A stretch of 30,945 nucleotides of DNA, from the IMG/VR virus record IMGVR_UViG_3300027917_000125, positions 1-30,945 of that record, one strand, 5' to 3'. Positions 1 to 3,398 of this stretch are shown here, in pieces; the first letter of the stretch is position 1; each line of letters starts with the position of its first letter. Made by a program: the position numbers and the translations under genes. Under the pieces are notes generated by a model. It ran no database searches, had not been told where the DNA came from, and saw only the letters and a program-made list of their open reading frames with translations. The stretch comes from a virus.

Positions 1-590
1 ATCACATCAGCTTTCTGAGATACATCATACCACATTTTCAGATTATACTTCGCAATCGGTTTTATACTTTCGCCACTGATCTGATCCCCGGTTACTGTCA
101 CATATCCCGAGTTAATAAACAACTCACCACCTATGCATAGTTCCTTCGATAAGTTGGTACGTCCTGGCAAACCCTCTTTATCATCACATGTCATTAAGAT
201 CCTCAAGCCACATCCTGAAGGTGAGTATTCCATGTATGAATCTTGATCGATAATAAATTCCCTGAACTCTTCAGACAGATTCATTATATCAAACTTTCTG
301 TCACCTCTTTTGGCATCCTTATCATCGATGTCAAAAGCAATCAAGTTTGTATGCTCATTGATCTTAATTCCTGGGTAACCATCCGCAATCGCTTCATAGA
401 ATGTAACACCAGGCTTCTTGCTAGATACCGAGTGTCCTTGCTGGGAACACGGAGGCTTGGAATAAGTACCATCATCATTCTTCTTATAGTAATATGCCAA
501 CCAAATCGGTTGCTTAAGAATCTCTTCAGGTAGATTCTTACGTATCTTATCGACAAGCCGTTGTTTGTCTGGTATTGCATTCGACATCAT
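1..590 (-). CDS. Primase-polymerase (AEP-type prim-pol), N-terminal part; gene runs off the left edge
   Basis: About 196 residues are read on the minus strand from ATG at 590 with no stop before the window edge. An AEP-type prim-pol synthesises primers or DNA at the phage fork and is often fused to a helicase, which would lie outside the window. Visible landmarks are an early IWLAYY segment (about 29-34), KPP at 45-47, AFDID with the metal-binding DxD at D87/D89, YSPSGCGLR at 122-130 and a GELF...GYVTVTG stretch at 155-168. That order is typical of phage and NrS-1/D5-associated prim-pol N-terminal domains. The histidine often following the SG.GL motif is not present here. AGGAG lies seven bases before the start, which supports 590 (the next ATG is 587). 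The start overlaps the upstream HTH gene by 44 bases, so the two are probably translated together. Catalytic activity is inferred. Confidence 0.75.
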   Translation of the reverse strand, partial: MMSNAIPDKQRLVDKIRKNLPEEILKQPIWLAYYYKKNDDGTYSKPPCSQQGHSVSSKKPGVTFYEAIADGYPGIKINEHTNLIAFDIDDKDAKRGDRKFDIMNLSEEFREFIIDQDSYMEYSPSGCGLRILMTCDDKEGLPGRTNLSKELCIGGELFINSGYVTVTGDQISGESIKPIAKYNLKMWYDVSQKADV

Positions 591-1132: not shown

Positions 1133-1636
1133 TTATTCAGTGGATTCCTCTTGATTTTCTGAATCAGATTCAGTTTTCTTGGATTCAACCAACATTTTGC
1201 GTCCATTTGGATCAGTGAATATGGCATATCCATCAGAACGTAAATAAGTTAATTGGGATGATACATTTTTTGTGGATATCCCTAAAAGTTTGGACATCTC
1301 CAAAATACTGATTGTCTCGTGTTTTCTAAGTAGATCTAAAACTTGTGATTTCCTACCATCTTTTGAGGTGGCTTCAAGTTTTGATTGAAGTTCAGCAATC
1401 AAGGAGTGATCCGCTTCACGAGCTTCTTTCAGTTCCTGAATCTCATTCATTTGATTAATGGCCAATTCAGTCAATTCAGTCTTATTCATGTCTTTAATTT
1501 CTTTCATTTTGTTTTTCCTTTTCATTTTGTGAGTTTGATTCATTTTGTTAGTTGGAAAATTAAAATATGAACTGGACACTAGACAATGAATGTCATTTAT
1601 TTTATCACCTCCCTTCATTTTATGAATTTGACTCAT
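1133..1636 (-). CDS. Winged-helix DNA-binding regulator with coiled-coil N-terminus
   Basis: Residues about 50-90 form a charged coiled coil (NQMNEIQELKEAREADHSL), and about 95-152 a winged helix: QVLDLLRKHETISILEMSKL, then LGISTKNVSSQLTYLRSDGY as turn and recognition helix, then a short wing (IFTDPNGRKMLV). The tail is acidic. ISTKNVSSQLTYLR resembles wHTH modules in phage and bacterial regulators. Two starts are possible: ATG 1636 after AAGGA, or ATG 1507 (residue 44) after AAAAGGA. The first 43 residues are low in complexity and their DNA repeats itself (MSQIHKMK and MNQTHKMK), continuing the adjacent repeat region, so 1507 may be the true start. The gene stands alone between a hairpin and the divergent region and is the obvious candidate to bind the nearby 18-bp sites; that link is inferred. 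Confidence 0.7.
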   Translation of the reverse strand: MSQIHKMKGGDKINDIHCLVSSSYFNFPTNKMNQTHKMKRKNKMKEIKDMNKTELTELAINQMNEIQELKEAREADHSLIAELQSKLEATSKDGRKSQVLDLLRKHETISILEMSKLLGISTKNVSSQLTYLRSDGYAIFTDPNGRKMLVESKKTESDSENQEESTE

Positions 1637-1662: not shown

Positions 1663-1679
1663 TGCAATAATTGTGCCAA
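1663..1679 (-). promoter_or_regulatory. Sigma-54-like -24/-12 promoter before the winged-helix gene
   Basis: The minus strand reads TTGGCACAATTATTGCA, an exact fit to the sigma-54 pattern TGGCAC-N5-TTGC. The start would be near 1652, about 16 bases before ATG 1636. A weaker sigma-70 reading overlaps it (GTGAAA, 18 bases, TATTAT). No enhancer-binding protein gene is seen in the window, so use of the site is unproven. Confidence 0.45.
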
Positions 1680-1798
1680 CTTTCACATTCATTAAATAAA
1701 TATCATTCATTGGACCTAAGTACTTGATTTTATTATAAATATTTTTTTATTTATTTTTCCACCTTATTTTAATTATAAAATGAATATGGCTCATAGTA

Positions 1799-1873
1799 CA
1801 TTATTTTGAACTTTATTTTATGAATGAGATTTTTCTAATAAAATCAATAGTTTATAAGTTCATTATTTTGAAC
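1799..1873. repeat. Pair of 13-bp direct repeats, 62 bp apart
   Basis: CATTATTTTGAAC occurs at 1799-1811 and 1861-1873. Both copies are close to ATGAATG-containing sequence, which recurs through the whole region and into the start of the winged-helix gene. Confidence 0.6.
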
Positions 1874-1922: not shown

Positions 1923-2071
1923 TGTCTACAAAAGTATACACTTTAAATATCCAATGTATACAATAATATACATGTATCAAAAAGTATACATGCCATTGAC
2001 ATATGTATCTTTTTATCCACATGTATCAAAAAGTATACAGTTGATTTAATCAGTGTATACAATAAGATACA
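1923..2071. repeat. Array of six 18-bp inverted-repeat sites (TGTAT-N8-ATACA)
   Basis: Six sites fit TGTAT(A/C)-N6-(T/G)ATACA: 1923-1940 (one mismatch), 1955-1972, 1973-1990, 2004-2021 (right half degenerate), 2022-2039 and 2054-2071. The two copies at 1973 and 2022 are identical (TGTATCAAAAAGTATACA). Start-to-start spacings are 32, 18, 31, 18 and 32 bases, so sites 2/3 and 4/5 abut and the pattern repeats about every 50 bases. Such spacing suggests cooperative binding of a dimeric protein, as operators, iterons or a partition site. The half-sites recall LexA boxes but the 18-bp spacing is too long for LexA. Confidence 0.8.
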
Positions 2072-2138
2072 GACTGGTGAATGACATTCATCCACTGAAC
2101 TGGACTAATTAAGTGAAAGTAAAAGTGAGGTGCGATTC

Positions 2139-2250
2139 AAAACTATTTTATATGGTGTATTTTTATTTTTAATTTACTTTATTTATTGATTTATCACTAT
2201 TCACTTAAAAAGACTATAAAGTATTGAAATTACTATAAAAAATGAAAAGT
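2139..2250. other. AT-rich block beside the 18-bp site array
   Basis: About 110 bases are almost only A and T, with ACTATAAA occurring twice (2213 and 2231 areas). Located about 70 bases right of the site array, it could be the DNA-unwinding part of an origin. No ORF or convincing promoter was found here. Confidence 0.35.
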
Positions 2251-2601
2251 GATCAGAAAGTGGGGAAGTGCCAGATTCTGAGCACTACTTTGGAAATGGA
2301 TCTGATTCCCGTAATGAACAGGACTCATCAACTAGAATTGGCACTCGAAATTTGAATCAGATTCATGAGATGGATCCCATCCAGTAACTGGATCACTTTA
2401 TCATTGCTGGGTCTGGTTCATTTAATTAGTACTCACTGATTAGCTGAGCCGGATTCATTAAACCAAGATGAATGCCATTCATTCTTTTGGGATGGCTCTA
2501 AACACTGGGCTGGACGTATTTTCTGGGCGGCATTCTTTTTATGAGTGGTGTGTATTTACTGGATCACACTCACTTACTGAGTGGGACTTGGCAGTGAACC
2601 C

Positions 2602-2825: not shown

Positions 2826-2854
2826 TTTACAAAGATGCAAAACTATGATATAAT
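2826..2854 (+). promoter_or_regulatory. Strong sigma-70-type promoter for the rightward late operon
   Basis: TTTACA (5/6 matches to the -35 consensus), exactly 17 bases, then a perfect TATAAT. The start would be about 2861, with the ribosome site AGGTAGGG and first gene at 2889 directly behind. No other equally good promoter was seen before the structural genes. Confidence 0.75.
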
Positions 2855-2888: not shown

Positions 2889-3398
2889 ATGCAAGACACT
2901 AACTGGGAACTGTTGAAATTTAAATACGAGGTCCTTGGGAATGATTTAGACCAAATAGCCGAGGAACACCAAGTTTCGCCGGCTGTACTCAAGTACAACG
3001 CTAAAGATTGGAAACAGATTCCTTTGGCACGGAAGGAACCCCTGAATCTTGAAGAGCTTAAATCGCTTGAAGATGTTTTATCGAAATTGGGAGAAGAGAC
3101 TGCCGCCCACACTAAAGCGTTTGCTATCCTCAAGCAGAAGTTTCTCGGGCCTAAATACGTGGAGCTCGAGACTGTTCTCCTCCATAAAGCTATTGAGATG
3201 GCTAACGGACTTTCTGCACAAGATCCACGGGGTGCGGCGACCTTGAAGAACTTGGCTAGTATACTCACTGAGTTGCTGGCTAAGAATCCGTTGTTAACTG
3301 TTGGTACTACGGAAGAGATCACTGATCCTAATAATCGTGAGTGGAAGATCACGGTGGTCGACTCCCGGAAAGATGGGGAAGAGGATGCCGACACGTAA
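2889..3398 (+). CDS. Probable small terminase subunit (HTH protein)
   Basis: This is the first gene of the late operon, 169 residues long, with a helix-turn-helix-like N-terminus at about 13-45 (EVLGNDLDQIAEEHQVSPAV) and a mainly helical centre (about 55-140). A small terminase recognises the packaging site and assembles as a ring that hands DNA to the large subunit. Size, N-terminal HTH and position upstream of the large terminase fit that role, although five genes lie between them. The ribosome site AGGTAGGG precedes ATG 2889. A transcription factor or another HTH protein cannot be excluded, since small terminases are very divergent. Confidence 0.5.
   Translation: MQDTNWELLKFKYEVLGNDLDQIAEEHQVSPAVLKYNAKDWKQIPLARKEPLNLEELKSLEDVLSKLGEETAAHTKAFAILKQKFLGPKYVELETVLLHKAIEMANGLSAQDPRGAATLKNLASILTELLAKNPLLTVGTTEEITDPNNREWKITVVDSRKDGEEDADT

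Follow-up and report, generated by a model that had tools for sequence, protein, structure and literature searches.

A phage-specific array of paired dyad sites as a putative exchangeable cassette in a probable replication and early control region

The non-coding DNA between the replication genes and the terminase genes of the virus analyzed here (a stretch of 30,945 nucleotides, referred to as the window) contains at positions 1923–2071 a tandem array of dyad sites of the form TGTAT-N8-ATACA, termed A sites, in a place where related phages carry arrays of unrelated sequence. On the evidence set out below, we lean toward reading the A array as a phage-specific iteron or super-operator array that would act as an exchangeable cassette in a replication/early control region. 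The array sits in a non-coding region of approximately 1.25 kb, with a leftward regulator/primase-helicase operon on one side and the rightward terS/terL genes on the other. The genes concerned are:

1–590, minus strand: N-terminal part of a primase-polymerase/VapE-like helicase (791 aa; the whole gene is at 3141–5516 of contig L005)
547–786, minus strand: 79-aa helix-turn-helix (HTH) protein, encoded first in the primase operon; candidate A-site binder
1133–1507, minus strand: 124-aa coiled-coil and winged-helix protein (likely start 1507), putative conserved partner of a second site family (B)
2889–3398, plus strand: terminase small subunit (terS), an assignment based on its conservation and on its place immediately upstream of the terL operon

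The A array comprises six dyad sites within 149 bp, beginning at 1923, 1955, 1973, 2004, 2022, and 2054; both these coordinates and the 32-18-31-18-32 spacing had been given correctly in a preliminary description of the sequence. The statement made there that all six sites fit TGTAT-N8-ATACA holds exactly for four (1955, 1973, 2022, and 2054), whereas one mismatch is found in site 1923 (TGTCTACAAAAGTATACA) and two in site 2004 (TGTATCTTTTTATCCACA). In 2,000 first-order Markov simulations of 1501–2700, 0.0075 exact sites were expected against the four present (at most 1 in 2,000 runs), 0.14 against five when one mismatch was allowed, and 1.8 against seven when two were allowed; the count of exact sites rules out a chance origin. 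No further exact match occurs in the rest of the 30.9-kb window, nor beyond the array in the 14.2 kb examined of L005, an overlapping contig of 99% identity, and the array was seen only in the single lineage that these two represent. Its rhythm reflects three head-to-tail units of about 50 bp (50, 49, and 50 bp) rather than six independent placements, and the 18-bp steps arise because these tandem units abut:

1923–1972: A unit 1, sites 1923–1940 (one mismatch) and 1955–1972 (exact), 32 bp apart
1973–2021: A unit 2, sites 1973–1990 (exact) and 2004–2021 (two mismatches), 31 bp apart
2022–2071: A unit 3, sites 2022–2039 and 2054–2071 (both exact), 32 bp apart

The 31–32 bp within each pair is three helical turns. 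In ungapped comparisons between units, the left sites are 83–100% and the right sites 56–94% identical, and the spacers only 23–50%, so that sites appear to have been retained while spacers diverged, as expected if the sites are under selection. Units 1 and 3 also form a 51-nt direct repeat with 78% identity.

A similar geometry recurs outside this lineage. Among exact TGTAT-N8-ATACA pairs in unrelated viral contigs, scanned at gaps of 22–32 bp and with redundant contigs included, 35 of 55 are spaced by 30–32 bp and a second cluster lies at 23 bp; abutting pairs are present in few viral contigs. The 30–32-bp pairing fits cooperative dimers on one face of the DNA. The genes behind these pairs are varied, ranging from an integrase-like gene to those for a LexA-domain protein and for terminase small subunits, so a common operator geometry is indicated rather than one regulator; a single regulator behind all the pairs is probably not the explanation, given such diverse flanking genes. 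Across contigs L089–L142, pairs at 30–32 bp were seen in many unrelated viruses, some before genes for DNA polymerase or integrase-like proteins. A search of the open literature did not turn up the exact operator sequence, one of known RNA families gave no match, and no DNA homologous to 1700–2700 was found in named phages. The earlier proposal of a nucleation array for a dimeric protein is supported in part: the sites look like a phage-specific array of dimer sites in what resembles a replication/early control region, with similar pairing found elsewhere, and the array may belong to an origin or be a super-operator.

The A array is not the only site family in the region. The first inventory missed a conserved second family, TGAAT-N3-ATTCA (B), arranged on an 18-bp lattice. 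Thirteen strict B sites are present in 1508–2888, where 0.03 are expected, and a reversed-pattern control gave zero matches in 21 of 21 records (whole-record counts). Over all relatives, the distances between neighboring B sites pile up at 18, 36–37, and 54 bp, and the arms of the sites are conserved around three nearly random central bases. In the window the B sites are distributed as follows:

1530–1635: B sites at the start and promoter of the winged-helix gene (1530, 1587, and 1623)
2595–2679: B lattice near terS in exact 18-bp steps (2595, 2613, 2631, and 2649, with a decayed site at 2667)
1781, 1902, 2078, 2315, 2353, 2445, and 2469: other B sites

B sites are present in the window and in L007, L008, L010, L011, L020, L021, L027, L049, L050, L051, and L055, and absent from L017, L018, L022, and L040. 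When viral contigs were scanned by DNA pattern alone for three consecutive lattice sites, the search led to L065/L067, in which a distant homologue of the winged-helix protein (E about 1e-12) has next to it a lattice of 13 sites that stands in front of a gene in the terS position; three other contigs (L066, L069, and L070) have the lattice without the protein. The 124-aa protein is predicted to consist of a long helix and a winged helix, and in a fold search it resembles NiaR/BirA/MarR-type domains only; neither it nor the 79-aa protein had an NCBIfam match above cut-off. Judged by this co-occurrence, the winged-helix protein is likely to be the binder of the B sites. The lattice, linked to this protein, spans 1032–2680 of the window and is probably more general than the A array.

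Related phages lack the A array, which the preliminary description had named among the refuting conditions, but unexpectedly other arrays fill the same slot. In an alignment of the window with L007, identity is roughly 80% on either side of the array (about 1501–1915 and 2075–2480, judged by eye), and the L007 slot itself holds a GTCRAA-N4-TTYGAC array in place of the A array. Arrays of ACTAC-ATT-GTGGT occupy the position between two lattice blocks, or an equivalent place, in L008, L011, L017, L022, and L024, and other relatives have 15–17-bp repeats in the slot. Long 15–17-bp (34-bp) tandem arrays of unrelated sequence were also noted in the same non-coding region of relatives, at 198–494 in L017, 408–808 in L018, and 468–645 in L022 (region coordinates for these three), and at 1–299 in L025. 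Because different relatives have unrelated arrays at this one position, we regard the A array as an exchangeable part within conserved surroundings. The pattern of replacement suggests that the slot may be an exchangeable specificity module controlling genome copying or switching-on.

Which protein might read such a module? Leftward from the array the gene order is winged-helix protein, 79-aa HTH protein, and primase-polymerase/VapE-like helicase, and rightward it is the gene taken from its position to be terS, then terL and a P22-like portal; the same order is found in L005, L007, L008, L018, L020, L021, L027, and L028. The preliminary description had named the products of both the 1133–1636 reading frame and 547–786 as proteins to test for binding. 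As the former, the winged-helix protein, is tied to the B motif, the 79-aa protein is left as the better candidate for the A array. It is also the protein best placed to track the array because it is divergent amid conserved neighbors: between the window, L007, and L008 the neighboring proteins are 65–77% identical and the HTH protein 37–41%, and for L007 alone the figures are 37% against 69–77% for its three neighbors. A helical HTH is predicted for its structure, and a fold search gave weak LuxR-type/transposase HTH matches, none significant. L020 and L021, whose HTH proteins are 78% identical yet whose arrays differ, tell against a simple rule linking HTH protein to array class. We put forward the 79-aa protein as A-site binder only tentatively. 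Among the proteins scanned, no lysogeny genes were found. TerL relatives in named phages are less than 60% identical, and in three of these phages other genes are placed upstream of terS, in a comparison of annotations alone. One contig of the phage group (L056) is binned in a Pacearchaeota assembly (JAFCGI010000013.1), probably through a binning error.

The array is surrounded by further elements of a control region:

1663–1678, minus strand: sigma54-like promoter (TGGCACAATTATTGCA) about 250 bp from the array, directed into the winged-helix gene
1716–1734 (minus strand) and 1835–1853 (plus strand): inverted pair of C motifs, TAATAAAATCAA-N4-TTA, kept in most relatives
2013–2021, plus strand: perfect DnaA box TTATCCACA, inside the weakest A site (2004) and the sole perfect box in the window
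2096–2270: F block, AT-rich and conserved, core TATAAAGTATTGAAAT-N-ACTA, directly adjoining the array; origin candidate
2826–2854, plus strand: sigma70-type promoter TTTACA-17-TATAAT, 11 of 12 consensus positions, predicted to drive terS

As in iteron origins, short repeats are clustered (six in 149 bp, none exact elsewhere), and they lie beside AT-rich DNA (75–80% AT around the array, 1700–2270) and a DnaA box, though a single one only. Since the array is adjoined by AT-rich DNA and by the conserved elements C and F, the region probably includes an origin; that the control region as such is the replication origin we hold to be an evenly balanced proposition. In several relatives, the F block lies on the opposite side of the winged-helix gene, and therefore array and origin candidate need not be one unit. 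The inverted C motifs form the base of large stem-loops in L018 (3099–3306) and L020 (7763–7957) and are an origin candidate. GC skew was not used as origin evidence because two ways of summing it disagree: the base-level cumulative minimum is at 839, not at the array, and a coarser windowed sum has its minimum at 1951–2100.

If the A array is indeed an exchangeable iteron or super-operator array, a small phage-encoded HTH dimer would fill the A sites cooperatively to form a nucleoprotein complex, and this complex would govern the leftward early promoter, the start of replication in the AT-rich, origin-like DNA next to the array, or both. In that case, the swappable specificity cassette would be the array, with the surrounding lattice and winged-helix protein conserved. 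A more elaborate version, in which a scaffold lattice on an 18-bp step is bound by the winged-helix protein and the swappable array by a fast-evolving HTH protein, the two layers setting replication or superinfection compatibility between close relatives as an analogue of plasmid incompatibility, is speculative and rather unlikely. Were the array such a cassette, the large non-coding control region shared by a group of uncultured phages would have two layers of protein sites, one of them conserved and the other replaced as a whole even between close relatives, and the A array would offer a natural way to test how phages alter the specificity of replication or immunity. Two protein/site pairs would be on offer, the winged-helix protein with TGAAT-N3-ATTCA and the 79-aa HTH protein with TGTAT-N8-ATACA.

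Several known systems resemble this arrangement in part. Plasmid and phage iteron origins likewise have clustered protein sites, AT-rich DNA, nearby replication genes, and a DnaA box, and their array sequence varies between relatives, as between incompatibility groups. However, the A sites are dyads in spaced pairs and not uniform direct repeats, initiator and origin are putative here, and the primase-helicase is 65–77% identical despite unrelated arrays. The stoperators of Cluster A mycobacteriophages, 13-bp sites recognized by a phage repressor and distributed genome-wide in one orientation (PMC6550527), are also many phage-specific copies of a short site that differ between relatives (heteroimmunity). 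In our case, the dyads are packed into one non-coding region, with no lysogeny gene among the proteins scanned. In the pRN1 operon, which is associated with a putative stem-loop origin, the gene for a small DNA-binding protein precedes one for a primase-polymerase that includes a helicase domain, but this origin candidate lies on the 3' side of the replication gene and, by the paper's account, lacks iteron structure (PMC4234260). In our assessment, pRN1 and the Cluster A stoperators are the nearest parallels, and neither fits fully.

The array might alternatively serve transcription only, as a super-operator or enhancer through which a host or phage regulator controls the leftward sigma54-like promoter, the rightward late promoter, or both, the array itself taking no part in replication. 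The leftward promoter is conserved in L007, L022, and L027, and the variety of genes that A-type pairs precede in unrelated viruses would suit such a function. On the other hand, no strong promoter overlapping the array was found, and AT-rich conserved blocks together with a DnaA box exceed what a promoter needs; we consider this explanation credible but unlikely. Use of sigma54 by phage early genes would be unusual, and no directly relevant work on early phage promoters dependent on sigma54 emerged from a literature search. The array does not match a NifA-type sigma54 enhancer (TGT-N10-ACA), as the exact A sites have TGT-N12-ACA arms.

Another possibility is a structured origin, in which, along the lines proposed for pRN1-like replicons, the primase-helicase reads a stem-loop or cruciform of about 127 nt and not dimer sites. 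As single-stranded DNA, 1934–2060 forms one long hairpin (z −3.7 versus shuffles), and the C/F block of L018, with the C motifs at its base, folds with z −5.3. The same kind of element is described as a putative origin for such replication proteins (PMC4234260); in that work, which covers the only prim-pol replicons with a published comparison, a stem-loop 3' of the replication gene is favored as the origin, and this position counts against reading the array as origin. Symmetric sets of dyads always fold well, however, and shuffles do not keep dyads; the hairpin is at least in part a by-product of array symmetry. The L007 slot folds no better than shuffles (z −0.6), and the hairpin lies 5' of the replication gene, on the other side from the pRN1 element, while no folding was seen in the 161 nt tested on the gene's 3' side (z −0.3). 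Hence, no conserved stem-loop of the pRN1 type was found in these segments, and a structured origin appears improbable.

That the winged-helix protein binds both site families is very improbable: a single base separates TGAAT from TGTAT, and 18-bp steps occur in both families, but the half-sites of the B family stand closer together by 5 bp, or half a helical turn, and relatives with a near-identical recognition helix (ISTKNVSSQLTYLR) have no A sites. A packaging (pac) or partition site is likewise less likely, and the most doubtful of these explanations, since, although the array lies upstream of terS, as do A-type arrays just upstream of a gene in the terS position in the unrelated phages L062 and L063, TerS is 65–76% identical in the window, L007, and L008 despite their unrelated arrays, a different repeat is nearer terS in most relatives, and the partition site proposed earlier is countered by the lack of an annotated partition gene among the neighboring proteins scanned (the genome is incomplete). 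This other repeat, CCAGCATTA, forms an element at about 2774–2815 and in relatives, between the arrays and the terS promoter, and is itself a possible pac/cos or TerS site.
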